A stretch of 64,000 nucleotides of DNA from contig DSEQ01000036.1 in NCBI GenBank assembly GCA_011056555.1, positions 62,001 to 126,000 of the forward strand, in the 5' to 3' direction. A program made the position numbers and the translations under genes. The notes below the pieces were generated by a model. It saw only the letters and a list, made by a program, of their open reading frames with translations, was not told the DNA's origin and made no database searches. Below are positions 9,489-35,793 of the stretch, in pieces. Source of the DNA: Candidatus Zixiibacteriota bacterium. Lineage in GTDB: Bacteria > Zixibacteria > MSB-5A5 > JAABVY01. Positions within the stretch are counted from its first letter, which is position 1. Each line of letters starts with the position of its first letter.

Positions 9489-10820
9489 TTACTCACGATG
9501 TCTGTCAGGGACTTTTCTGAATAGAATCAAGCCGATCAACATGAGCAGCGCCAGGCTGAAGACTGCGAACCTGTACTCAATCGTAGCCAGGGTCAGCGAG
9601 GAGATTTCAACGCCCACTGCGTTAAGAAGATCAACGATTACATTAACCAGCGGATTCTCAGCCTTCATCACCAGAACCACCAGACCCCAAATTAACGGGC
9701 CTATGACAGCCGCGGTTCTTCCGGATAATGCATAAAGCCCATAGAATAAACCGAGTTTTTCATCCGGGACAAGGCTGTTTAGAAGCGGCCGTGCGACTGT
9801 CCAGGTCGATCCCAAAAAGACGCCCACAAAACATGCCGCGACCCAGAATAGCGGCTGGAAGGTTATCACGCTTATGGCCAGCAGCACAGCTATCCATCCG
9901 ATGACGATGATCCACATGGTGCGTTTGGGACCGATCCGGTCCGATATTCTTCCCGACACAATCGAGCCCAGGGCGGCCGAGAGAGTGGCCACAACCCAGA
10001 GTTCGATTTTCAAACGGTCGCTAAAGCCGACAACTTTTTCGGCATAAATTGCCATAAATATGATGGCGGTAACAACAGCGTCTTCGAAAAAGTAGTTCGA
10101 AATCAGGAAGCGGAAGGCTCCTTTATGTTCACGGGCCTGCTTCAGGTTGTCTTTGAGGTTGTTGAAGGCGTGCATGAATTTCATCCGCTGCTCATAGATT
10201 TTCTCAAAGGTCTTCTCTCTTATTAATAGAAAGGCGGGAATGGAGAATATGAAGAACAGAATTGCGGTGGGAATAATCGCCGCTTCCCGGCCGGCCGGAA
10301 TCCAGGGGATATTTCCTTTCACAATCGGAAATACCAACAGGAGCCCCACTATTCCCCCAATGTATCCAAGCCCCACACCCAGACCGGAGGTGCGCCCGAT
10401 ATTTTCTCTGGATGACACAGATCGCAGGAGCGCGTTATAAAACGCGATCCCCCCTTCATAGAAAAAATTGGCCGCGGCAAAGAAGATTAAGGCGATAATG
10501 ATCTGCGTCCAGCGCCCCTCAAAAATGTAAGCATTCAGCCCTATTAATACCGTGGAGATGATCGATAATAATGTAAATCTGATCAGCCAGCTTTTCTTGT
10601 TCTGTTGCAGGTCTGAATAATGGCCGTAAAAAGGCATCAGAAGAGCGACCATGACCATGGATGCGGAGTAGCTGATAGAGTAGAGTATATCCGGGCAGTT
10701 GAGATCGTCCAGAATCCAGAGGTTGAAAAACATGGTCACTATATTCATGGAGAATATAGTATTGGCAAAATCAAACGACAGCCATCCGACCAGCGAAAGC
10801 TTTTCCTCTTTGGGGGGCAT
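9489..10820 (-). CDS. MFS transporter, UMF1/Atg22-like family
   Basis: 443-residue polytopic membrane protein with about 11-12 helices. The N-terminal motif GWLSFDFANTIFS and the helix-2/3 loop region PFYGHYSDLQ match the UMF1 (Atg22-like) branch of the major facilitator superfamily. The mid-protein motif GRISDRIGPKRT is the duplicated MFS loop signature. The substrate is unknown; yeast Atg22 exports vacuolar amino acids, but bacterial members are uncharacterised. The ATG at 10820 has AAGG about nine bases upstream and begins 12 bases after the HD-domain gene, so it is co-transcribed with it. Confidence 0.85.
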   Translation of the reverse strand: MPPKEEKLSLVGWLSFDFANTIFSMNIVTMFFNLWILDDLNCPDILYSISYSASMVMVALLMPFYGHYSDLQQNKKSWLIRFTLLSIISTVLIGLNAYIFEGRWTQIIIALIFFAAANFFYEGGIAFYNALLRSVSSRENIGRTSGLGVGLGYIGGIVGLLLVFPIVKGNIPWIPAGREAAIIPTAILFFIFSIPAFLLIREKTFEKIYEQRMKFMHAFNNLKDNLKQAREHKGAFRFLISNYFFEDAVVTAIIFMAIYAEKVVGFSDRLKIELWVVATLSAALGSIVSGRISDRIGPKRTMWIIVIGWIAVLLAISVITFQPLFWVAACFVGVFLGSTWTVARPLLNSLVPDEKLGLFYGLYALSGRTAAVIGPLIWGLVVLVMKAENPLVNVIVDLLNAVGVEISSLTLATIEYRFAVFSLALLMLIGLILFRKVPDRHRE

Positions 10821-10832
10821 GGGACAAACCTT

Positions 10833-11381
10833 CTAAAATCCTAATTCATCGGATATCGAACGCATCCCCTTTAGAGCAAGCCCCATAAACTCCTCCAGGC
10901 TCAGCCCCAGCTCTTGGCATTTTGCTATCTGCTCCCGGTCCGCCCCTGCCGCAAACCGTTTTTCTTTGAAGCGCCTGAGCATATATCCTTCATCGACATC
11001 AGCAAGTTTTTTTGTGGGATGCATGAGCACTCCGGCCACTATCAGGCCGGTTACCGGGTCGGAGCAGTACAGTGCCCAGTCCAGTTTGCTTTCACAGGGA
11101 ATGTGTCCGGGATGGGCGCGGATCGCGTGCATCATATCATCAGGAATTTCATATCCTTCGAGCCATTCCTCTGTCAGGAAGGTATGCTTTTCGGGATGGT
11201 CGACTGTTTTGGAGTAATCGAGGTCATGCAGCAGCCCGGTCAGCCCCCAGTACTCGACATCCTCACCAAAATGCTCAGCAAGTGTGCGCATAACCGCTTC
11301 CACGGCCAGGATATGTTTCACCAGGTTTTTCTGCCTGACTTTTTCCTGAACCAGTTTATATGCATCTTCACGGCTAATCAT
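10833..11381 (-). CDS. HD-domain metal-dependent hydrolase, uncharacterised
   Basis: 182-residue soluble protein with an HD-superfamily core. A metal-binding His is in KHILAVE (near residue 23), the HD pair is in GLLHDLDY (near residue 53), and further His and Asp residues follow in HAIRAHPGH and LYCSDPVTG. HD proteins hydrolyse phosphate esters of nucleotides or related compounds; nothing here fixes the substrate. The frame is open to 11423, but a strong AGGAGG sits just before the ATG at 11381-11379, which I take as the start. It begins 9 bases inside-to-outside of the barrel gene stop (11390). Confidence 0.8.
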   Translation of the reverse strand: MISREDAYKLVQEKVRQKNLVKHILAVEAVMRTLAEHFGEDVEYWGLTGLLHDLDYSKTVDHPEKHTFLTEEWLEGYEIPDDMMHAIRAHPGHIPCESKLDWALYCSDPVTGLIVAGVLMHPTKKLADVDEGYMLRRFKEKRFAAGADREQIAKCQELGLSLEEFMGLALKGMRSISDELGF

Positions 11382-11389
11382 CCAACCTC

Positions 11390-13306
11390 CTAATTGCGGA
11401 AATTCCAGAGAAAGCCCCACCATATCCTTCGACGCAGTTCATAATTGTAAAAATCCCGATGGGGTTTATTAAAGACATTATCCATATTGTAAAAGATTGT
11501 CAATGTCTTAATTTTAAATTGGAACTGTGCATTCATCAGGAAATATTCTCCGAGCGTCTGAGGATTGTAAGGCGACTTGAAATTTTCTGAATGATATTCC
11601 CCCTCAAGACCGCTGAGAACATAGAGGTTCAATCCGGGAATATAGATTTCTTTTGTAAGAAAGGCGCAGGCATTATGTCTGGGCGCAAGTGTGAGATAAA
11701 CTTCCGAATCGCTGTCCTCGAGGAGTCCATAACTGTAGGCAAATCTGGAATCAAAACCCAGGGGCAGAGCAAGACTGAGATCAAAACCGCCCACAATCCA
11801 GTTGGCATCGCGCTGATAAGGACTTGATCCGTGGACATTCTGCGTCCACCAGGTTGAATTCGATATCTCCGCCTGCTTCAGATATATGTCACCTTCAAAA
11901 ATCCCTTTATCGAACTTCATGCCGAGCGAATATCCTATGTAGTCGGTGTTGTCGAGGTCGCTGTTCCCCTGAAAGCTGAATTGTCCTTCGCCTCCGGTAA
12001 TCGGAAGCAGATCGATCTGCGGGGATGATGCGAAAAGTTCAAAATCAGAGGGCGGGCGGGTGATTCTGAATAATTGTCCCGATAGAATCAGGGATCCGCT
12101 TTTGCTGTAGCTCAGCCCGCCGGCGAGGGAGATATCGTTTTCGGCATAATCGCTTATTGTTACTGCTCCCGAGACATTGATAAAGAAATTATTCAAGAGA
12201 TCATAACGGCTCAGTCCGGATGCGGTCAAACCCGCATATTCAGTTGTCTCAGGTTCGAATTCGATATTCCTGGCAAAAGGTTCGATATTGAGATATGTGT
12301 ACCAGTCGGATATGTTGATAGAAGTTTCTAATTTCAATTTATAAAACTGGGAGACCTGCCGAAATTTATCGTGATCTCCCCTGACCGATTCTGAGAACCT
12401 CTGAAAAATAAATGAAATTCTGTCCAGAATCCATACCCGCTCCTTCGCAGCCAGAGCCATAGATAAGCCGACGAAGCTGGCCTCAGATCTGCCCTGATAA
12501 TTTTCGAATTCATTCAAGAACCTCAGTTCATCATCGCTGCTGAAAAAAGCCAGGTCGGGTTGCAGCTGCAGGTTCTCGCTCAGCTGATAATCGGCGAACA
12601 AGCGGTATGTTTCGAAATCTTTCGCCTGATTAGTAACATACCCGTCACTCAGCTTGAATCCGGCTGTGAATCCCAACCGGCCTCTTTCTCCGAGATTGCC
12701 CCGAAATTTAACCATAGTATTGGAGAAACCATAATCGCCCTTTTGCATGTAGGCGCTGGTCAATGCTCCCGAATCAGGATAAGCCGGCCTGAAGACATGC
12801 AGGGCATTGGTGTGTTCTACAGTTGAAAAGAACGGGAATTTTGCATATGCGGCCTGCTCGTAGCCGATCAGCCTGCTGTCGACCAGGCCATTTACCGGAA
12901 GGCCGAACTGAGCGTAATCGAAGACAAAATCACCAAAAACAAAGCTCCTGACAGGCATGCCCCCAAACATTATATATTCCGGCTGAGCATACGGTCCTGT
13001 TCTCAGCAGTTTGAAACCGCTGTATGTTCTCACGGCCTCTCCCGTTGAATTTGAATGTTTGGTGCTGTAAGCTGTGTTATTAATTGTCCGGACCAGATGG
13101 GAATTCAGAACCAGTGAGTCTCTGGCTGTATATTGCACATACTCTATCGATTTTTCAGGGATGGTATCAGGGATCGCCGCCTTCACTGTATCAGTCTCCC
13201 CGGGTTCAGGCCCGGCCTCCTGCGCAGCCGCGACAGAAGTGGACAAGATGAAGACGAGAATAAATAAAAACAGCTCTACCGGTTTTGATATTGCTCTGGC
13301 AATCAT
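11390..13306 (-). CDS. Outer-membrane beta-barrel protein, TonB-dependent receptor-like
   Basis: 638 residues with a signal peptide (residues 1-28, cut near VAAAQ), then a region about 95-165 that resembles a reduced TonB-receptor plug (GGMPVRSF, GLPVNGL, then EYxx-like strand), then a long run of alternating amphipathic strands typical of a 20-plus-strand barrel. It ends in the aromatic-rich WWGFLWNFRN. I see no CarboxypepD_reg or STN domain and no clear TonB box. Its start overlaps the stop of the ECF S-component gene by four bases, so it may be the outer-membrane partner in uptake of the same small molecule. It could also be a non-TonB porin. Ligand unknown. Confidence 0.7.
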   Translation of the reverse strand: MIARAISKPVELFLFILVFILSTSVAAAQEAGPEPGETDTVKAAIPDTIPEKSIEYVQYTARDSLVLNSHLVRTINNTAYSTKHSNSTGEAVRTYSGFKLLRTGPYAQPEYIMFGGMPVRSFVFGDFVFDYAQFGLPVNGLVDSRLIGYEQAAYAKFPFFSTVEHTNALHVFRPAYPDSGALTSAYMQKGDYGFSNTMVKFRGNLGERGRLGFTAGFKLSDGYVTNQAKDFETYRLFADYQLSENLQLQPDLAFFSSDDELRFLNEFENYQGRSEASFVGLSMALAAKERVWILDRISFIFQRFSESVRGDHDKFRQVSQFYKLKLETSINISDWYTYLNIEPFARNIEFEPETTEYAGLTASGLSRYDLLNNFFINVSGAVTISDYAENDISLAGGLSYSKSGSLILSGQLFRITRPPSDFELFASSPQIDLLPITGGEGQFSFQGNSDLDNTDYIGYSLGMKFDKGIFEGDIYLKQAEISNSTWWTQNVHGSSPYQRDANWIVGGFDLSLALPLGFDSRFAYSYGLLEDSDSEVYLTLAPRHNACAFLTKEIYIPGLNLYVLSGLEGEYHSENFKSPYNPQTLGEYFLMNAQFQFKIKTLTIFYNMDNVFNKPHRDFYNYELRRRIWWGFLWNFRN

Positions 13307-13830
13307 ACCCTCTTTACAAACTCCCGCAAAGTTTTATTTAACGGAGTCAGGAAAGCAAAGATAATTATATTGGAAACGATTGTCAGCATTGAAAAACCTA
13401 AACTGATCAAAAATCTCTCTTTAAAAGGTCCAAACAGAAGAGCATCAGCGAGGGAAATGGCGCCCATATAGATCGAGGTTACGGCAAAACCCCAGAAACC
13501 AAAGAGCAGATATGTCCGCCAGTCAGAGGTTTTTACGGGAAAGAGGGCACGAGCAAGGGCTCCGATCATCCCTACCAGGCCGCCGGAGATTATTTGCACC
13601 GCCAAAAGCGGAAGCATGGCCATGCCGTAGGGACTGAAGTATGAGATCAGGAGGAATCCCAGGCCGCCGGAAATAAATCCCCACCTCGGCCCGAGAATAT
13701 AGCCGGCCATAAATATAATAAAAAATGCCGGGGAGACATTGGGCACGATCAGCATGAATAAGTTCGATACGTATGCCAGCCCGGCAAATAAAGCTGTAAA
13801 TACAAGGGATTTGGTATAACCCTGTGTCAT
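13303..13830 (-). CDS. ECF transporter S component (vitamin-type substrate-binding subunit)
   Basis: 175-residue membrane protein with five to six hydrophobic helices. The pattern fits ECF-transporter substrate-specific subunits: a Gly-rich helix GYILGPRWGFISGGLGFLL near residues 44-62 and a short cytoplasmic C-tail. Such proteins bind a vitamin and need a shared EcfT/EcfA energising module, which is not encoded in this window. It overlaps its neighbours by four bases at each end (metalloprotease upstream, barrel protein downstream). The pairing with a TonB-receptor-like barrel suggests a cobalamin-like substrate, but this is inference. Confidence 0.75.
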   Translation of the reverse strand: MTQGYTKSLVFTALFAGLAYVSNLFMLIVPNVSPAFFIIFMAGYILGPRWGFISGGLGFLLISYFSPYGMAMLPLLAVQIISGGLVGMIGALARALFPVKTSDWRTYLLFGFWGFAVTSIYMGAISLADALLFGPFKERFLISLGFSMLTIVSNIIIFAFLTPLNKTLREFVKRV

Positions 13831-15776
13831 TCTATTATGGCGACCTTCAAAACCCTGTCAACATCTCCAACAGAAATATAAAGAAGATACATACCCGAGG
13901 CGACCACGTCACCCTCCTCATTATGGCCGTTCCAGCCGACAATCTCGGTGGTTCGGCTGGCGGCCACTTCACTCTCGAACACCCGTTCACCAGAAAGGGT
14001 ATAAACCTGCATCCTGATAGGCTGCGGTTCAGGCTGCATAACCTCGACATAGATATCCTGCCCCGCAGATTGCGAGATTACATAAGGATTCGGGTAAGGC
14101 TCTGAAATGACGATTGTCTCGATCGGCTCGGATGTGTCTGTCACATTAAGGCTGAATACAAGGTCATCGATATAATTAATATTAGCCCTTGGAATCACGA
14201 AGGGAGAAAGCACGAGCACAAACTCGTCATATTGCTGTAATAAATCATGCTCAATCGTTATTTCGGAGGAGTCAGCGGCATATACGACCGGATCAATGTA
14301 GATCGGCTGAGTGGGAATATGCGGATTATACGCCATCAAGCGGTTGTTCCAGATGATATCATAGGTAACGCCCAGTACCCTTTTGCTCGGCAGGCCCTTG
14401 AAATTAATAGTCAGGCTTGAATCGAGCTGATCCACACCGGTAAAACGCAAGTAGAATCCGCCCATAACCTGGGGGAAATAAAAGAATTCACCAACAACTG
14501 AATTGAATTCGAGGGGATAATCTTTGAAATTCAGTATATTAAAACGGTACGAGTTGCCCTCTCTCACTGAATCAGGAACCTGAATCGGGTTGCCAAGGTA
14601 ATTTACAAACTCTCCGGCTTCTTCAAATCCAAAATTATCTCTCGCCCGAAGACCGGTAAAGTAATTCCATATATATAGCTCAGAAAGCGCCTGGCCGAAT
14701 GTATATTCACCTCCGGAGAATTGCTCTATGGCGTCGCTGAAAGCATTCTGGAAGACATTAGGACCTATTTGCGCTTCGCATCTCTCCCAGATATCCTTGA
14801 TTATATCCCTGCCCCACTTCTCGGATAAATACTTGGGCCAGAGAACTGCGCCATACTGATATAGTCCCGGCTGATTCGTATAAAGCGCCCTGTATATAGA
14901 AGACAAATAGGATGGAAGATAATTGTAATAATCATTTACATGGTCATAAATCTCCTCCTCCATCCAGACAGCGGACATCTCAACCCAGTGATGGCGGTCG
15001 TCAAGATCCGTGTCCGTGCCCATATTTTCAAATTCCAGAACGTCATATCCGAATTGCGTTACATGGAAGAACTCATGTCCGGCCGTAACCCTGACCGCTT
15101 CAAGAGGACGATCCTCATAGAGTGGCAGTTCATAATAGTCGTTATCCAGAGCCTGGAAGGCGGTAGAATACTGCCCGCTGGTTCCAAACTGCATGTCAGG
15201 AAAGGTCACGCCATAAGCATTACCCCATCCGACAGTAGCCAGGTCCACAAGATAGACGTCAAAGCGCTCATCCCCTCCTTCAGGATAGAAATCATCCCGG
15301 GGCGGATCCTTGTAACCAAGTGTGTCAATCTGATATTCGTAGACATAATCAAAAATGGCGGCGGTAGATTCCACATATTCAGGCACGCCTGTGGTGGGAT
15401 TTATGCCCAGATTTTCGTCGGTCCTGGCTGCATGAACGCCGTCGGTAGCATAATGAATAAGAAAATGACCTTTGGGCGAACCGTATGTCTCCGGAGCCTC
15501 CTGATCATATCTCTCATACAAAAGCGCAATCCAGGCCTGCTGAGTTTTCAGCGAGGCATTCTTTATTTGCTGAGAAATAGACATCAAAAGTGGAGTTCCG
15601 CATTTTCCTATTTTCCCTTCCAAGCTATCGCTGCTCAGGCTGACGTCCGTCTCTCCACGCCAGATCATTATCTGGCGATAGAGCTCAGCGTCCTGTTCAG
15701 TCGAAAGCTGCTCTGAAATCGATGTCGATGCGAACACTATGAGTAAAATCGCAATTAATATTGAAGTTTTTTTCAC
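13827..15776 (-). CDS. Secreted zinc metalloprotease, MXAN_6640-like, with FlgD/T9SS-type C-terminal domain
   Basis: 649 residues with a signal peptide (1-20). A zincin motif HEFFH lies at 234-238 (TAGHEFFHVTQFGYD), with nearby acidic residues in HHWVEMSAVWMEEEIYD that may supply the third ligand. The arrangement resembles the MXAN_6640 family of putative secreted metalloproteases. The last ~85 residues (from EPYPNPY) form a FlgD-Ig-like domain with the YTLSGERV, GxNxxGxxVASGMYL pattern found in proteins sorted by T9SS-like systems. No type IX secretion genes are in the window. Thirteen bases separate it from the PHP gene stop; it overlaps the ECF S gene by four bases. Confidence 0.75.
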   Translation of the reverse strand: MKKTSILIAILLIVFASTSISEQLSTEQDAELYRQIMIWRGETDVSLSSDSLEGKIGKCGTPLLMSISQQIKNASLKTQQAWIALLYERYDQEAPETYGSPKGHFLIHYATDGVHAARTDENLGINPTTGVPEYVESTAAIFDYVYEYQIDTLGYKDPPRDDFYPEGGDERFDVYLVDLATVGWGNAYGVTFPDMQFGTSGQYSTAFQALDNDYYELPLYEDRPLEAVRVTAGHEFFHVTQFGYDVLEFENMGTDTDLDDRHHWVEMSAVWMEEEIYDHVNDYYNYLPSYLSSIYRALYTNQPGLYQYGAVLWPKYLSEKWGRDIIKDIWERCEAQIGPNVFQNAFSDAIEQFSGGEYTFGQALSELYIWNYFTGLRARDNFGFEEAGEFVNYLGNPIQVPDSVREGNSYRFNILNFKDYPLEFNSVVGEFFYFPQVMGGFYLRFTGVDQLDSSLTINFKGLPSKRVLGVTYDIIWNNRLMAYNPHIPTQPIYIDPVVYAADSSEITIEHDLLQQYDEFVLVLSPFVIPRANINYIDDLVFSLNVTDTSEPIETIVISEPYPNPYVISQSAGQDIYVEVMQPEPQPIRMQVYTLSGERVFESEVAASRTTEIVGWNGHNEEGDVVASGMYLLYISVGDVDRVLKVAIIE

Positions 15777-15789
15777 AGCCGCTCCTAAA

Positions 15790-16614
15790 TCATTGATATT
15801 TTTCTTTTACCTTTAGCAAGTTCTTGTAGCATTTGTGCGGCACTTTCTGGGTGCCTATAAGTATCCTTTCTCTGCGAGCATGGCAGTCGGAACCGCCGGT
15901 ATATATTATATCGTATCTTTTGGCCAGGTCAATATAATGCCTGCTGGCTCTCATATCATGCAGGGGGTGAAAGGCTTCAATACCATCCAGTCCCATGGCA
16001 ATAAAATCCTCAATAAAATAGTCCTTTCCGACCGGTCCCGGATGAGCCCAGATTGCAACTCCACGGGAATTGTGTATCAGGTCGATAGCTTCCTGGGGAG
16101 TGAGGTATTTCTTGGGAACATATGCGGGGGCATGATAGCCGAGATATCGCGCAAATGCTTCATCCAGGGTCAGAACATACTCCTCTTTCACCAGGGCGTC
16201 GGCAACATGGGGCCGGCCCATAACCGATTGACCTGCTACCTTTTTTACAGTCTCCATGGACAAATCGATCCCGAGCTCGTTTAACTTTTTTACGATCGCT
16301 TCTCCCCTTTTAAAGCGCTGCTGACGGAAAAAATCTATTTTTTTCTTGAAATCCCTGTTATCGAGATCTATGAAATAGCCCAGGATATGAAAGTCCGTTG
16401 ATTTCCATGAGGTTGAAAGCTCCACCCCGGGCACCAGGGTTATGTCCTTGTTGGCCACATAGTTAGAGAGTATGGTGTGTGCCTGAACTGTGTCATGGTC
16501 TGTTATTGACAGATATTTTATGCCGTTCTTAAGGCAGAAATCGATGACCGCTTCGGGCCACAAAAGGCCGTCAGAGCAATTAGTATGCACATGCAGATCT
16601 ACTGGATTTTTCAT
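15790..16614 (-). CDS. PHP-domain phosphoesterase (RNase AM / TrpH-like)
   Basis: 274-residue PHP-fold metal-dependent phosphoesterase. Motifs in order: DLHVHTNCSDG (residues 6-16), SITDHDTV (36-43), PGVELS (62-67), the mid-domain HVADAL, the AIWAHPGP motif near 192 and the GGSDCHA motif near 250. The standalone form with this length and motif set matches the TrpH/YciV group, which in E. coli hydrolyses 3',5'-nucleoside bisphosphates and trims RNA 5' ends. It lacks polymerase domains, so it is not PolC or PolX. Its start overlaps the ftcD stop by four bases. Confidence 0.85.
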   Translation of the reverse strand: MKNPVDLHVHTNCSDGLLWPEAVIDFCLKNGIKYLSITDHDTVQAHTILSNYVANKDITLVPGVELSTSWKSTDFHILGYFIDLDNRDFKKKIDFFRQQRFKRGEAIVKKLNELGIDLSMETVKKVAGQSVMGRPHVADALVKEEYVLTLDEAFARYLGYHAPAYVPKKYLTPQEAIDLIHNSRGVAIWAHPGPVGKDYFIEDFIAMGLDGIEAFHPLHDMRASRHYIDLAKRYDIIYTGGSDCHARRERILIGTQKVPHKCYKNLLKVKEKYQ

Positions 16615-18143
16615 AGCTTTGATATAACATCGTTTTCGATCTTCTGTGCCAATTCTACAGCATCTTTACGGATTTTTTCGGCCTTTTCCTGAATCTCGGT
16701 TTTAACCTTGTCGTCCTCGATGCCCGGAATATTTATCTTCACATTCATGTATGCGCCGATCACCGCCGTCCTGCCGGCCAGGGACGACACCCCGGCATCG
16801 GAAAGCGAGTTGACATTACCCTTCTCGGCGACAATTTGTGAGCATTTTATGGCCTCATATGACAGTTCCATGACTTTGAGAGGTATGCGGGTGGCCTGAA
16901 TTGTCGCCTTCTGGATCGCCTGTTCGCGTTCTGCCTTCATTTTATCGGTATCCTTGGGCATTTTCATGGCCGCCATAACATCATCGAAAGCCTTGGCATC
17001 GTCGGAGATAAGATTAAAGAGCGCTTCCTTTAAGCCGTCGGCTCTCATCATAACCTCGGAAATCTCATCCTTGACATCAGCATATTTCTTCTTATTGACA
17101 GTCAACCGGCAGACCATACCGGCCAATGCTGCCGCCAGCGATCCCGCGCAGGCCGAGACCGAACCGCCTCCCGGAGCTGGTGCCTGCGAGGCGACCGCCT
17201 CGATAAAATCCTTGATTCCGCCTTCCCTGGAGGCCTGTTCCGAAGCCTGCTGCAGCTTCTCCTCCAGAATCTGATCCTTTGTGAAATTTTCCAGACGGAG
17301 GTAGTGCTTGGCGCAGTTTATCAGCGCCTGATTCGGCACAAGTCCAACAACTTCTGAAGAGTAAATCGAGGTGCCCCATCTGGTTGCTTCGGATTCGATA
17401 GTATTGAATACCCGGTATATCGGCGTGCGCAGATAATTGACCAGGTTCATCGAAACCTGGGCCATATTGCGGTCTTTTATCTCGAAACCGAGCGCCTTGC
17501 AATAGGCATAGCCGCCCCAGTTGCTTCTTATCGCCTTGGCGATTTTCTTGGCTACGGAAACATCAGGAGTATTCAAATAGACATTAAAAGCAATCAGCGG
17601 GAATCGAACCCCGACTGCCGTGCAACCAGCCCGCGGATGAATCTTCGAAGGGCCATAGTCAGGCTTTCTTTCGGGCAGTGTCTCTATTTCCCTGGCAATG
17701 ACCTCATATTCTCCCTTGCGGATATCGGCCAGATTCACTCGTTCAGGCCTTGTGGCGGCATCCTCGTAGAGATAGATCGGAATCTCCAGCTCATTGGCAA
17801 CCCGTTCTGCAAGCTGCTTTGCCAGGGCAATCGCCTCTTCCTGCGAAACCTCGGATATCGGCACAAACGGCACTACATCGGTGGCTCCCATGCGGGGATG
17901 CTCTCCCTTGTGGGTTCTCAAATCGATGACCTCCGAGGCTTTTTTCATGGCCCTGAAGGCGGCTTCGACCGCCGCATCGGGAGGTGCGACATAGGTCACC
18001 ACCGCACGGTTATGATCTGCATCCATTTCCTTATCTAAGAGTACACAGCCCTTGACAGAGGTAATTTCGTCAAGGATTTGCTGCAATACTTCGGGTCTTC
18101 TGCCTTCTGAAAAATTGGGAATAACTTCCACTAATTTTGCCAT
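16611..18143 (-). CDS. ftcD: Bifunctional glutamate formimidoyltransferase / formimidoyl-THF cyclodeaminase
   Basis: 510 residues holding both activities in one chain. Residues 1-300 are the transferase (VIPNFSEGR at the N-terminus, the catalytic-type H82 in GEHPRMGATDVVPF, GCTAVGVR-like segment near 185) that moves the formimino group from formiminoglutamate to tetrahydrofolate. Residues about 310-510 are the helical cyclodeaminase (APAPGGGSVSA near 326). This fusion is common in animals and in several bacterial groups. No other histidine-degradation genes are in the window. The predicted promoter is about 45-72 bases upstream, and AAGGCGG precedes the ATG. Confidence 0.93.
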   Translation of the reverse strand: MAKLVEVIPNFSEGRRPEVLQQILDEITSVKGCVLLDKEMDADHNRAVVTYVAPPDAAVEAAFRAMKKASEVIDLRTHKGEHPRMGATDVVPFVPISEVSQEEAIALAKQLAERVANELEIPIYLYEDAATRPERVNLADIRKGEYEVIAREIETLPERKPDYGPSKIHPRAGCTAVGVRFPLIAFNVYLNTPDVSVAKKIAKAIRSNWGGYAYCKALGFEIKDRNMAQVSMNLVNYLRTPIYRVFNTIESEATRWGTSIYSSEVVGLVPNQALINCAKHYLRLENFTKDQILEEKLQQASEQASREGGIKDFIEAVASQAPAPGGGSVSACAGSLAAALAGMVCRLTVNKKKYADVKDEISEVMMRADGLKEALFNLISDDAKAFDDVMAAMKMPKDTDKMKAEREQAIQKATIQATRIPLKVMELSYEAIKCSQIVAEKGNVNSLSDAGVSSLAGRTAVIGAYMNVKINIPGIEDDKVKTEIQEKAEKIRKDAVELAQKIENDVISKL

Positions 18144-31681: not shown

Positions 31682-32101
31682 CTACGCTTCCAACTCCGCT
31701 TTATGGTCCTTGAAAATAGAATTCAAAATGCCATTGACAAAGGATGATGATTCCTCCGTCGAATACTTTTTGGCCAGTTCTATAGCCTCGTTGATGGAGA
31801 CCTTGGAGGGGATATCCGGCATAAACAAGAGCTCGCAAATACTGATCCTGAGAATATTTTTGTCCACCAGGGCAAGGCGGTCTATGTCCCAGTGCCGGGT
31901 GTGATTTCTTATCTCGTCATCAATTGAATTCAGGTGCGTGATAGTCAGATAAAAAAGATCGCCGGCAAATTTCCTGGGTTTTTCCGAAAGTCCGGAGTCC
32001 TGGGAGAGGGTCTCCATTATATCCTCCGGATTGCCGGAAACAGATTCGTAGGCATAAAGACTTTTTAATACCAGTTCGCGGGCTTTTCTGCGTGCGCTCA
32101 A
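31682..32101 (-). CDS. nusB: Transcription antitermination factor NusB
   Basis: 139-residue all-helical RNA-binding protein that acts with NusE (S10) at boxA in rRNA transcription. Characteristic segments: [15 protein letters not shown] (residues 4-18), a mid-region [28 protein letters not shown] (65-92) and the C-terminal [21 protein letters not shown]. It overlaps ribH by four bases. A ribH-nusB pair is one of the most common gene neighbourhoods in bacteria. Confidence 0.95.
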
Positions 32102-32568
32102 CTGAGACTCTCCCTGTAAAGATTAGCCATTTCAATTGCCGATTGAGCGGCGTCCCATCCACGATTGCCGGCCTTGGTTCCGCATCTCTCGATACCCTGC
32201 TCCAGAGTGTCCGCTGTTACCACGCCATAAATTACCGGCAAACCGGTCGCCATCGATATATTCGCAATACCCTTGGAAACCTCTGCCGCAATATACTGAA
32301 AATGCGGAGTGTGTCCGCGTATCAAGGCGCCTAAACAGATGATAGCGTCAAATTTTTTGGAGTTGGCCAGATGATTGGCGACATAGGGAATCTCGAATGA
32401 ACCGGGCACCTTAAAAATCTCGATATTCTCACTGGAAGCATTATGACGAACCAGGCAGTCCAGCGCGCCCTCCTGGAGCTTGGCTGTCAGGAGATCATTG
32501 AAGCGTGATACTATTATCCCGAACTTCAGCCCTTTTGCATCAAGCTTTCCTTCATGAATCTTTGCCAT
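32098..32568 (-). CDS. ribH: 6,7-dimethyl-8-ribityllumazine synthase
   Basis: 156 residues. Condenses the RibD product with dihydroxybutanone phosphate to make the lumazine precursor of riboflavin; forms large icosahedral or pentameric shells. Motifs: VSRFND (20-25), VPGSFEIP (residues 54-61), [24 protein letters not shown] (78-101, with the catalytic His in GHTPH) and [19 protein letters not shown] lies ahead of the ATG. It overlaps nusB by four bases and starts 20 bases after ribBA. Confidence 0.96.
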
Positions 32569-32588
32569 CTATATTTCTCCTTGGTTTC

Positions 32589-33827
32589 TTATATCATATT
32601 GAAGAGATGTCCCAGCTTCTCTTTTTTACATCTCAGGTATTTCTTGTTGTACTCAGTCGGAGAGGTTTCGCTGGGAACCCTCTCGGTAACCTTCAATCCG
32701 TAACCCTCGACGCCGACAATCTTGCGCGGATTGTTGGTAATTAACCGGACCGTGGAAAGTCCAAGATCGACCAGAATCTGGGCCCCGATACCATAGTCAC
32801 GCAGGTCATCCTTGAATCCCAGCCTGTTGTTGGCCTCGACCGTATCGCATCCATTCTCCTGCAGGTGATATGCTTTAATCTTGTTTGCCAGTCCTATTCC
32901 GCGCCCTTCCTGGCGCATATACAGAAGTACGCCCTGTCCCTCTTTTTCGATCATCCGCATTGCGGCGGCTATCTGGTCCCCGCAGTCGCAGCGCATCGAA
33001 CCAAAAACATCACCGGTAAGACACTCCGAATGAACCCGCACCAGCACATTTTTCTTGTTGCGAATATCACCTTTAACCAGCGCTACATGATTTTTGTGAT
33101 CTATTGCCGAGGAATAAAGATGCAGCCTGAAGTGGCCGTACTTGGTCGGAAAATCGACCTCTTCTTCCTTTGAGACCAGCTTTTCAGTTTGGGTCCTGTA
33201 TTCAATCAGATCCTTGATTGTAATCACTTTCATTCCAAACTTCTCGGCGATTTCCATCAAACGCGGCACACGGGCCATCTCGCCGTCTTCATCCATAATC
33301 TCACACAATACGCCTGACTGGTGGAGGCCTGCCAGTCGAGTCAGATCGACTGAAGCCTCGGTGTGCCCCGCTCGCACCAGCACGCCGCCTTGCACAGCCT
33401 TGAGGGGGAAGATATGTCCTGGACGGGCCAGATCATGGGGCTGGGTATCCGGATGTACGAGGGTCTTGATCGTTATGGCACGATCCCGAGCGGAGATACC
33501 GGTGGTAGTGCCGCTTACAGCGTCGACAGATACTGTGAAATTAGTACCCAGCTTAGACGTATTGCGCTGGGCCATCGACTCCAGCTCCAGCTGGTTGATC
33601 CTCTCCTCTGTCAGGGAAACACAGATCAGCCCACGTCCCTCTTTGGCCAGAAAGTTGACATGATCCGGGGTAACCATCTCGGCAGCCATGATAAAATCGC
33701 CTTCATTCTCCCGATCCTCGTCATCAACTACAATGACCATTTTGCCGATCCTGATATCCTCGATAGCATCGGGAATAGAAGCAAAGTCGTATTTGTCGCG
33801 ACTGTCTTTAATTCTTAAAGTAGCCAT
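32589..33827 (-). CDS. ribBA: Bifunctional 3,4-dihydroxy-2-butanone-4-phosphate synthase / GTP cyclohydrolase II
   Basis: 412 residues. Residues 1-210 are RibB ([22 protein letters not shown] near 36-57, [14 protein letters not shown] near 150), which makes the four-carbon unit from ribulose-5-phosphate. Residues 215-412 are RibA, GTP cyclohydrolase II, with zinc ligands in [17 protein letters not shown] and the catalytic segment [14 protein letters not shown]. Both domains keep their active-site residues, so the fusion supplies both riboflavin precursors. It lies 14 bases after ribE. Confidence 0.96.
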
Positions 33828-33841
33828 GTCTCTTACTCCGT

Positions 33842-34483
33842 CTAAAATCCCGCCCGGCGGAATGTCTCCATATCGACATTGCCCTGTCGGGCCCGGTATG
33901 GATTTATAATCTGTTGCACATATTTTCCAATTAAATCAAACTCCAGGTTTACCGCATCCCCAGGCTTGAGCCAGGGGAAATTAGTCATCTCCCAGGTATG
34001 AGGAATTATGGATACGCCGAATAATCCCGGGCCTGCTTGAGTGACTGTCAAGCTCACGCCATTTATCGCTATCGAGCCTTTGGGCACCACCAGATTATCG
34101 AATTCAACCGGATAACCGATTTCCAGCTCCCAGCTTCCCTCGATTCTGCGAATTGTTTTTACCTGCCCCAGGCAGTCGATATGGCCGCTGACCATATGAC
34201 CGCCCATACGGCTGTCGGGACGCAGGGCTAGCTCGAGATTTACCGGATCGCCGTTTCTCAGGTTACCCAGATTGGTCTTCCGAAGAGTCTCCGTGATTGT
34301 GTTAACCGTAAATCGGTCGGCCCTCACCTCAACCGCTGTCTGGCAGGCGCCGTCAATATTCACGCTGTCGCCTATCTTTATCTCAGGTGACAATTTTACG
34401 GCCATTACTTCAAGTATCAGATCACCACTTTGCAGGCTGGCCGACTGTACTTTTCCAACTTCTTCAATCAGACCGGTGAACAT
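33842..34483 (-). CDS. ribE: Riboflavin synthase
   Basis: 213-residue trimeric riboflavin synthase (alpha type). It shows the internal duplication of the family: [12 protein letters not shown] at the N-terminus with [15 protein letters not shown] near 57-71, then a second copy from about residue 97 ([24 protein letters not shown]-like segment ending [12 protein letters not shown]). It converts two lumazine molecules to riboflavin and a pyrimidine. GGAG lies seven bases ahead of the ATG, three bases past the ribD stop. Confidence 0.95.
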
Positions 34484-34486
34484 CTT

Positions 34487-35569
34487 CTAACTCCAAATCG
34501 GATATCCGCAGACCCAGATATCCTCTCCTTTCTTCAAATACTCTACTTCAGACAAATATATCGAATGCTCCAATATATCGATACCCAGATTCTGGAAGGC
34601 CGGAATTCCGGCGCCGATAATTTTGGGCGCAATACCTATATAAATTTTATCCACCAGTTTTCTTTTCAGAAAAGACGTGAATAAAAGCGATCCGCCCTCC
34701 ACAAGAATCGAGCTGATACTCTGGTTGGCGGCTTTGATAAGAAGACTGGTGAGATTGAGCGTGTCGTCTTCGTAGGCATCGACCGACCACATAATGGCAT
34801 TCTGCCTGTGGTTCTGGATATCTCTATCATTGGGCGGAGCAGCGATAATGGTTTTGTTGTCGTCGTTATCCTTGAAGAGATGCAGGTCGGTTGGAAGCTC
34901 CGTCCTGTCCTGCAGCACTATCCTGTATGGGTCCTTGCCTTCCACGTGCCGTACGGTCAGGCGCGGATTATCTATAACCGCAGTCCTGGCTCCAATTGCA
35001 ATCGCATCCACATGAGACCTTAAGGTATGCACAAAGGATCTCGACTCCTCCGAGGTTATCCACTTGGGACGGCCGGTGGTGTCGGCAATTCTGGAATCCA
35101 GGGTCTGGGCCGCTTTCATTATCACGAAGGGCATGCTGGTGGTGATATACTTGAAAAATATCTCGTTTTGCTTGCGCGCCTGTTCTTCCAGCAGACCGAC
35201 ATCAACGGTAATACCGGCATCCATCATCATGCTGATCGATCTGCCGTTGGTCTTCGGATTGGGGTCAACAGTCGAAACCACCACCCGCTTGAAACCGGCC
35301 TCCATGATCGAGTTGACGCAGGGCGGCGTTTTACCGTGATGAGAGCAGGGCTCCAGGGTCAGGTAAAGAGTTGCACCTTTGCATGAAGAATTGGCGCTGC
35401 GCATGGCATTGATTTCGGCATGGGGACCGCCATAGAATTCATGGTAACCTTCCCCCATAATCTGGCCGTCTTTCACTATGACCGCGCCTACCACCGGGTT
35501 GGGTGAAACTTTGCCGCGCCCCTTTTCGGCCAGACCAAGGGCCCGCTGCATTAAGGTGATGTCGTCCAC
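34487..35569 (-). CDS. ribD: Bifunctional diaminohydroxyphosphoribosylaminopyrimidine deaminase / reductase
   Basis: 360 residues. Residues 1-145 are the zinc deaminase (HAEINAM near 50 and PCSHHGKTPPC near 73-83, which hold the His-Glu and two Cys ligands). The rest is the NADPH-dependent reductase (GRPKWITSEESRSFVH, AIAIGARTAVIDNPRLTVR, VEGGSLLFTSFL). Start codon is GTG at 35569 with GGAG 11 bases upstream. It is the first gene after the FMN riboswitch, so it is expected to be shut off when FMN is plentiful. Confidence 0.95.
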   Translation of the reverse strand: MDDITLMQRALGLAEKGRGKVSPNPVVGAVIVKDGQIMGEGYHEFYGGPHAEINAMRSANSSCKGATLYLTLEPCSHHGKTPPCVNSIMEAGFKRVVVSTVDPNPKTNGRSISMMMDAGITVDVGLLEEQARKQNEIFFKYITTSMPFVIMKAAQTLDSRIADTTGRPKWITSEESRSFVHTLRSHVDAIAIGARTAVIDNPRLTVRHVEGKDPYRIVLQDRTELPTDLHLFKDNDDNKTIIAAPPNDRDIQNHRQNAIMWSVDAYEDDTLNLTSLLIKAANQSISSILVEGGSLLFTSFLKRKLVDKIYIGIAPKIIGAGIPAFQNLGIDILEHSIYLSEVEYLKKGEDIWVCGYPIWS

Positions 35570-35587
35570 GTTTCAATAAGCTCCAAT

Positions 35588-35613
35588 AAAAAACCCAAAG
35601 CCTGTGCTCCGGG
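35588..35613 (-). terminator. ribD leader: Terminator hairpin of the FMN riboswitch expression platform
   Basis: Minus strand: CCCGGAGC (35613-35606), loop ACAG (35605-35602), GCTTTGGG (35601-35594), an 8-bp stem with two G-U pairs, followed directly by six T (35593-35588). It stands between the aptamer and the ribD start, which is what a transcription-attenuation riboswitch needs. Confidence 0.75.
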
Positions 35614-35662
35614 GTGGACGACTGCGGCCCGAATAAAATAGACCGCTACATATTCTGTCAAC

Positions 35663-35781
35663 CTCTTCTCCCATCCGGACTGTACCGTCGGCAACCGAAT
35701 TTCACGGTTTCTGCGGACCTTTGTCGGATCCGCTCGCGGGCTTTAACCGCCGGTTGAGGAATTTCGCCTCACCCCGAAGAG
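35663..35781 (-). ncRNA. FMN riboswitch (RFN element)
   Basis: Read on the minus strand, the conserved RFN core is complete: TTCGGGGTGAGGCGAAATTC at the 5' side, then ACCGGCGGTTAAAGCCCGCG, then GATCCGAC, GAAATTCGG, and GCCGACGGTACAGTCCGGAT with GGGAGAAG at the 3' side. The closing P1 helix pairs CTCTTC (35781-35776) with GAAGAG (35668-35663). It senses FMN and controls the ribD-ribE-ribBA-ribH-nusB operon. A terminator-type platform follows at 35613-35588. Confidence 0.97.
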
Positions 35782-35793
35782 CAATTTTCACAT

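Follow-up and report, generated by a model that had tools for sequence, protein, structure and literature searches.

How corrinoids pass the inner membrane of diderm bacteria that require B12 and lack BtuCDF is often unexplained. This question is raised by a locus in a 64,000-nucleotide stretch of DNA from a Candidatus Zixiibacteriota bacterium (NCBI GenBank assembly GCA_011056555.1, contig DSEQ01000036.1, positions 62,001 to 126,000 of the forward strand; hereafter the window), where the gene for a small S component of an energy-coupling factor (ECF) transporter, here termed S, sits between the genes for a metalloprotease (P) and a receptor-like outer-membrane barrel (B). An original prediction, made from the sequence alone, had read B and S as a two-membrane uptake route for one small molecule, dependent on an ECF module encoded elsewhere. 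We computed the protein families, the conserved order of the genes, whether the ECF module is present, and the pattern in which S is replaced by B12-type importers. The results point to a CbrT-type S component, flanked by a protease on one side and a BtuB-like barrel on the other, as the probable missing B12 importer of this lineage. The explanation that we favor overall, with moderate confidence, is that S provides the inner-membrane, substrate-binding step of corrinoid uptake, with B, and perhaps P, acting alongside it.

The S component and its conserved neighbors

Both profile searches and structural modeling bear out the assignment of S as an ECF S component: it matches the Pfam family PF07155 (ECF S component) with 37 bits against a cut-off of 26.7, and its AlphaFold2 model (mean pLDDT 93.7) shows the S fold, aligning with FolT (7nnt_C; Z 16.5, root-mean-square deviation (rmsd) 2.7, 163 aligned) and ThiT (Z 15.9). 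The fold was dropped as a guide to the substrate, because similar scores are obtained with S components for several different substrates and CbrT is unlisted. At the sequence level, a profile of 45 S proteins (A2) searched against the PDB recovered CbrT (6fnp) as the sole match up to E 1 (5.7e-9), and a profile of 48 S proteins (A4) again recovered CbrT (4.1e-9), with RibU (0.5) as the only other match up to E 10. Q79 and N154 of S do not vary in either alignment, whereas N31 is invariant only in the second; CbrT retains all three residues, whereas TmRibU does not (HMMER alignments). The S of the window contains neither histidine nor cysteine; the best-filled histidine column has this residue in 21 of 45 relatives, and one column of alignment A4 has cysteine in 25 of 48 proteins. 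The first helix of S components carries an A-x-x-x-A motif that contacts EcfT; read by eye, the family consensus has A-x-x-x-A at this site and the S of the window A-x-x-x-G. According to the available part of the report on CbrT (PMC5997447), this protein transports cobalamin and cobinamide and needs its ECF module, and hemin is no competitor.

The gene neighborhood was examined in 58 genomes, including the window's own (G000, a 3.58 Mb assembly in 55 contigs), which range from the same genus to the same class and whose records are named Candidatus Zixiibacteriota. S was matched in 48 of them, in a single copy each (E up to 0.001), and the neighbors at these 48 loci (47 fetched and the window) were called with profiles built here. 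P lies immediately upstream of S on the same strand at all 48 loci, some of the P genes being truncated where the contig ends. B lies immediately downstream at 47, the exception being L056. A gene for an HD-domain protein (H) follows B at 28 of the 48 loci, several contigs being short or cut by contig ends. The starts of B are approximate, its frame being open beyond the probable start at several loci, among them L052 and L071. The conserved cassette is thus P-S-B, often followed by H, and the adjacency of S and B is more than chance. The pairing of the barrel with the S component that the original prediction had proposed therefore holds across the relatives; the most constant neighbor of S is the protease, which was absent from that account. 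H is retained after B also in L238, which lacks S, and single-locus split genes, reflecting frameshifts or assembly errors, affect P in L038 (L038:5316-7289) and B in L073 and L126 (L126:11585-13692).

In the window, S ends in GTA TGA and B starts with ATG ATT, which confirms the predicted 4-base overlap (ATGA), and the stop of P and the start of S share an identical ATGA overlap. Across the relatives, the P/S overlap is present in 31 of 48 loci, and 14 have a start codon that lies in the frame of B and overlaps the S stop codon. The overlap from which coupled translation had been proposed thus exists in the window, but is a weak sign of such coupling for S and B.

A scan of named genomes with the P profile yielded the best 80 of 543 relatives, a set that overlaps the 58 genomes and hence is not independent. 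Among these 80, 44 show P-S-B, two P-S cut by a contig end, three P-S without B, two P-B without S (L165, from G022, and L168, from G029), 17 P alone and 12 P at a contig end. The P-S-B records in this set are mostly named Candidatus Zixiibacteriota or candidate division Zixibacteria/GN15, with a few recorded under other names (Calditrichota, Ignavibacterium, 'FCB group' and 'bacterium'). A search of a plasmid collection yielded no match to S. No such cassette is described in the titles and opening abstract lines of the papers retrieved on ECF transporters with TonB-dependent receptors or BtuB, or of those on Zixibacteria and cobalamin.

ECF module, probable corrinoid dependence and alternative importers

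The cassette itself contains no ecfA or ecfT genes; a module was found on other contigs of the same genome, as the original prediction had anticipated. EcfT is encoded on contig 12 (L001:1396-2220; PF02361, E 2.6e-37, 129.2 bits), adjoining a gene which, by eye, we take to be truA-like. Apart from ecfT, a single gene on contig 19 (L084:4698-6353, 551 residues) encodes an EcfA1-EcfA2 fusion, which as a whole protein scores above both NCBIfam cut-offs, TIGR04520 and TIGR04521. The absence of EcfT from the genome, named at the outset as grounds for abandoning the idea, is thus not what is observed. EcfT is present in 50 of the 58 genomes and tracks S: the 43 genomes with a completeness of at least 90% and a contamination of at most 5% comprise 37 with S and EcfT, two with EcfT only, four with neither and none with S only, and the full set of 58 comprises 45, five, five and three, respectively, the three S-only genomes (G002, G044 and G054) each being less than 90% complete. 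Fisher tests of this co-occurrence give 0.0024 for all 58 genomes and 1.2e-4 for the better 43. In four of the five genomes with EcfT only (G018, G025, G046 and G056) P runs into a contig end, and the fifth (G052) has no P match; G025 and G056 weakly match a different S-like protein (0.005 and 3.6e-4). EcfT may also serve other S components; a search of the window's genome with PF12822, which did not extend to BioY, ThiT or CbiM, recovered S and one sub-threshold match only.

CbiC, a marker of corrin synthesis, was detected in none of the 58 genomes (against 7 of 14 controls), and a cobalamin riboswitch (RF00174) was detected in 54, by a genome-wide search whose stricter filters could lose weak matches. 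Together, these counts indicate that these organisms import corrinoids rather than make them. The riboswitches, which the original prediction had suggested looking for in homologous operons, were not seen at the cassette: an Rfam scan of the whole window yielded a single riboswitch, for FMN and some 22 kb distant, with neither a cobalamin nor a thiamine riboswitch at the locus, and the cassettes of the relatives, searched for RF00174 only, showed none near S. Cobalamin riboswitches are present in 45 of the 48 S-bearing genomes, on the S contig in three (the nearest at 49.7 kb) and on another contig in 42. At the first ten riboswitch loci fetched, the first gene is BtuB-like in all ten and a propeller-like gene is next in six (L206, L208, L210, L212, L213 and L214), these labels being mostly by eye. 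In the window's own genome, the riboswitch on contig 19 (L206:6121-9592) is followed by the gene for a TonB receptor that has a CarboxypepD_reg domain, and then by a propeller-like gene with a dockerin-like end. This receptor has plug and barrel domains and its best NCBIfam matches are B12-receptor models, below cut-off; the propellers of L206, L208 and L212 give only weak propeller matches in Pfam and NCBIfam. The receptor-propeller pair of L206 resembles BtuB-BtuG of Bacteroides.

The genomes that lack S reveal candidate substitutes. A DUF6580 protein is encoded in four of the 58 genomes (G012, G015, G022 and G029), and in three of these its gene lies 0.1-4 kb downstream of a cobalamin riboswitch together with a BtuB-like gene; the orders (some names by eye) are riboswitch, DUF6580, BtuB-like and propeller in G022, and riboswitch, BtuB-like, propeller, DUF4430-like and DUF6580 in G015 and G029, with the riboswitch and DUF6580 on separate contigs in G012. 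DUF6580 is accordingly a candidate inner-membrane importer of B12. Matches to FecCD, the permease family of BtuC, occur in 35 of the 58 genomes, 29 above cut-off, with a sole strong one in G051 (288.7 bits, the next being 44.3). Of the weak matches, the seven examined (G000, G004, G005, G022, G036, G041 and G045) are all ABC-3 metal permeases, with 111-266 bits for ABC-3 versus 26-46 for FecCD. The permease of G051 scores 290 bits with FecCD and has BtuC models as its best NCBIfam matches (214.9 bits, cut-off 461); it stands in a row with genes for a periplasmic binding protein and an ATPase (L252:110-5993), just downstream of a gene for a B12-dependent ribonucleotide reductase. Siderophore and heme models score close for these importer genes. 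As judged from sequence, this BtuF/BtuD/BtuC-like row likely transports B12.

The five genomes without both S and EcfT are exactly the five with DUF6580 (four) or the BtuC-like permease (one). An alternative importer is thus seen in none of the 48 S-bearing versus 5 of the 10 S-less genomes (Fisher 5.5e-5), and in none of the 50 EcfT-bearing versus 5 of the 8 EcfT-less genomes (Fisher 1.2e-5), values that overstate independence, since the genomes are related; G015 and G029 belong to one genus, leaving four independent families at most. In a tree of P, four S-less rows fall in three places: G022 among f9/f13/f16, G051 beside f8, and G015 with G029 apart. These placements were read off the printed tree, in which some forks have low support, G051 has a long branch and G012 is absent, and the program's 'changes = 1' for the S-less rows refers to a comparison with four outgroup rows only. 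In G015, G022, G029 and G051, P and B are adjacent, with S gone from between them and the readable flanks as usual. This pattern fits either an exchange of the inner-membrane step alone or B and P serving something else.

Taken together, the CbrT profile match, the absence of CbiC along with the presence of cobalamin riboswitches, the replacement pattern and the BtuB-like structure of B (see below) make cobalamin or another corrinoid the highly probable substrate of S.

The barrel, the protease and the rival readings

The B of the window matches no family in Pfam and NCBIfam up to E 1. A profile of 24 B proteins, run against the PDB, matches TonB-dependent receptors, among them PhuR (7.1e-9), OprC (5.8e-8) and BtuB (8.9e-8), the last match covering the plug. 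The AlphaFold2 model of B (35 sequences, mean pLDDT 79.9) has a plug-like part at about 60-175 followed by 22 strands, by our own count from the strand list; with the profile matches, this upholds the TonB-receptor-like barrel of the original prediction. A Foldseek search with the model returned E. coli BtuB in all of the top 10 rows (1nqe, 5.3e-23), followed by heme, colicin-I and copper receptors. In VIA-align, the top 11 rows are E. coli BtuB (Z 33.8-35.6), led by 2gsk_A (Z 35.6, rmsd 2.9, 543 aligned), and the twelfth is Bacteroides BtuB1 (33.5). The model suggests that B is closest to BtuB by structure.

P belongs to the MXAN_6640 family of putative metalloproteases (NF045524; 193.8 bits, cut-off 140), with the HExxH residues H234, E235 and H238 invariant among 36 P proteins. 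It also matches PF19527 (32 bits, cut-off 27) and, barely above cut-off, TIGR04183 (23.9 bits, cut-off 23), the sorting tail of the type IX secretion system (T9SS). The window's genome contains an SprA-like gene (SprA_N, 51.1 bits, in a 2003-residue frame), and its sequence features suggest that P is probably exported via the type IX system. We know of no earlier link between the MXAN_6640 family and a transporter cassette, and a literature search for DUF6580 and MXAN_6640 by name found no paper. Additional P-family genes that have neither S nor B beside them, in part arranged in tandem, occur in L248:4267-10662, L174:663-4794, L051 and L059, and such extra genes are also found in records named Latescibacterota and Gemmatimonadota.

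In the explanation that we favor, S would bind the corrinoid at the periplasmic side, as CbrT does, dock on the module of EcfT and EcfA1A2, topple and release its ligand inside, with ATP being spent. B, as a protein of the BtuB type, would most likely carry the corrinoid over the outer membrane beside the riboswitch-controlled BtuB-like receptor, and P could act at the cell surface, e.g., by freeing protein-bound corrinoid or processing a surface partner. Whether B belongs to the same uptake route as S we regard as evenly poised, and a role of P in corrinoid uptake as doubtful.

Several observations weigh against this explanation. With respect to S, the fold comparison ranks FolT, 4hzu_S and ThiT highest, with CbrT 6fnp not among the listed rows; the top Pfam name is riboflavin transporter, S component, rather than one for B12; EcfT occurs in five genomes without the cassette S; no cobalamin riboswitch was seen near S; and the FecCD cross-matches that bear on the replacement pattern extend to 35 genomes, of which seven, five of them S-bearing, were examined, besides the relatedness of the genomes noted above. 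With respect to B, the best sequence match of its profile is the heme receptor PhuR, and FhuA and OprC (both Z 32.5) and ChuA lie within about 1 Z of Bacteroides BtuB1 in the structural comparison, where the small size of BtuB, like that of B, may partly explain the preference. Moreover, P and B persist in four genomes without S, and P-S occurs without B in the named loci L130, L150 and L157 and in L056; hence, the genes are separable. Finally, the riboswitch-controlled BtuB-like receptor encoded elsewhere implies that the outer-membrane step already has a receptor. The S-less genomes strengthen the case for S as the corrinoid importer; for B and P, which outlive S, a place in the same route is what we infer. 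Of the two-membrane route for one molecule, both parts and their pairing stand, whereas the occurrence of B without S and of S without B leaves the share of B as the less certain half.

These points bear on four other explanations. The most substantial, which we consider possible though clearly the less probable reading, accepts S as a corrinoid importer and assigns B and P to another function, such as surface proteolysis and peptide uptake, in a merely shared operon. The P-B neighbors of the four S-less genomes, the receptor already available at the outer membrane and the lack of a riboswitch seen at the cassette all speak for it; however, 47 of the 48 loci have S placed exactly between P and B, the predicted structure of B resembles BtuB, and the corrinoid model too predicts that B is kept if the inner-membrane step alone is swapped, with B feeding the periplasm. 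By contrast, heme uptake, in which P sets free the heme bound in hemoproteins, with B as its receptor and S as a heme S component like LhaS of Staphylococcus lugdunensis, strikes us as improbable. The protease would suit such a system, PhuR is the top PDB match of the B profile, and a heme-specific ECF transporter does exist (available part of PMC7299338), but the spectra of LhaS described there suggested histidine coordination, whereas the S of the window is devoid of histidine and the family column best filled with it reaches fewer than half of the relatives. Nor does heme uptake account for the loss of S and EcfT just where DUF6580 or a BtuC-like permease occurs, and the S profile finds CbrT, whose transport hemin did not compete for (available part of PMC5997447).

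That S carries another vitamin, i.e., riboflavin, folate or a precursor of the lower ligand, for instance alpha-ribazole, is unlikely, if a little less so than heme. The riboflavin name in Pfam, the weak NCBIfam match to the FolT family (19.7 bits, cut-off 60) and the formiminotransferase-like gene upstream would favor it. Conversely, the profile matches RibU only at 0.5 and, up to E 10, FolT not at all, the importers in the replacement pattern are of the B12 type, and the window has riboflavin-synthesis-like genes with their own FMN riboswitch (32098-35785), from which it follows that the organism should make its own riboflavin. Least probable is an S uncoupled from the ECF module, acting alone or in a structural role: while the cassette has no ecfA or ecfT and the module lies on other contigs, EcfT is present in all 37 S-bearing genomes that are at least 90% complete, and the family consensus retains the A-x-x-x-A of the first helix (with A-x-x-x-G in the window). 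Corrinoid import by S hence remains the reading that we prefer.

Genomic setting, known systems and significance

The features of the locus and the DUF6580 genes from cobalamin-riboswitch operons are collected in the table below. The start given for H is an in-frame Met that we chose, its open reading frame being open from 11423. Upstream of P, the PHP phosphoesterase gene and the formiminotransferase-like gene share a 4-base overlap, and similar upstream genes precede P in L150, L157 and L238 (by eye). On the downstream side, genes that by eye we take to be nuo-like lie beyond H and the MFS permease, and an MFS-permease-like gene also follows in the S-less L237 and L238 (by eye).

Features of the P-S-B-H cassette, its flanks and other elements of the window, and DUF6580 genes of relatives
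Feature	Coordinates	Strand	Length	Description
S	13303..13830	-	175 aa	ECF transporter S component, CbrT-like; predicted from sequence to bind and import cobalamin/corrinoid
B	11390..13306	-	638 aa	Divergent TonB-dependent-receptor-like outer-membrane barrel, BtuB-like by predicted structure
P	13827..15776	-		MXAN_6640-family HExxH metalloprotease ('HEFFH'), predicted secreted, T9SS-type C-terminal sorting domain
H	10833..11381	-		HD/HDIG-domain protein; PF01966 39.5 bits, TIGR00277 37.9 bits
MFS permease	9489..10820	-		Downstream of H; PF07690 124.1 bits; flank with no established cassette role
PHP phosphoesterase	15790..16614	-		Upstream flank; PF02811 PHP domain
Formiminotransferase-like gene	16611..18143	-		Upstream flank; presumably glutamate-formiminotransferase-like (label by eye)
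Riboflavin-synthesis-like genes	32098-35569			Labels by eye
FMN riboswitch	35659-35785			Ahead of the riboflavin-synthesis-like genes
DUF6580 gene	L254:3705-4211			In a cobalamin-riboswitch operon
DUF6580 gene	L253:3869-4396			In a cobalamin-riboswitch operon
DUF6580 gene	L208:5428-5955			In a cobalamin-riboswitch operon

Among known systems, ECF-CbrT of Lactobacillus delbrueckii (6fnp) resembles S in needing a separate ECF module and in being found where BtuCDF is missing; it differs in that EcfA1 and EcfA2 form one fused gene in the window's genome. Moreover, as far as the available part of PMC5997447 describes it, CbrT is a protein of a monoderm and stands in an nrdJ-cbrS-cbrT-pduO cluster, whereas S is found in a diderm, between a protease and a receptor-like barrel; no B12-dependent or B12-salvage gene was found next to S in the window, and its constant neighbors across the 48 loci are P and B. 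BtuM, a solitary S-like B12 protein of Gram-negative bacteria, resembles S as a small membrane protein of diderms with B12 as its (for S, probable) substrate, but it ligates cobalt by a cysteine (available part of PMC6072759), whereas the S of the window has none and EcfT is present in 45 of the 48 S-bearing genomes. BtuB of E. coli, and BtuB1-3 of Bacteroides with BtuG (available part of PMC10404256), share with B a plug and 22 strands in about 600 residues. Near the N-terminus, where a TonB box would be expected, 23 of 24 B proteins share an aligned D with T, S or A as the next residue, within a low-complexity stretch. Unlike BtuB, the B of the window is below Pfam and NCBIfam detection, has a degenerate plug and is without a riboswitch.

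A bolder extension, which we put forward only tentatively, is a protease-assisted, two-membrane cobamide cassette: P, exported by the type IX system, would free or process a corrinoid carrier at the surface, B would take the corrinoid in, and S with the shared ECF module would complete its import. The inner-membrane step would have been swapped several times for a BtuFDC-like or DUF6580 importer with P and B staying in place; if true, DUF6580 would be an unrecognized B12 importer, and the replacement pattern by itself already marks it as a further candidate. These observations show that conserved gene order links an ECF S component with a receptor-like protein of the outer membrane, and they suggest a tie between an uncharacterized protease family and nutrient uptake. 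For a mostly uncultured lineage of diderms that appear to depend on imported corrinoids, S thus provides a named candidate for the passage over the inner membrane.

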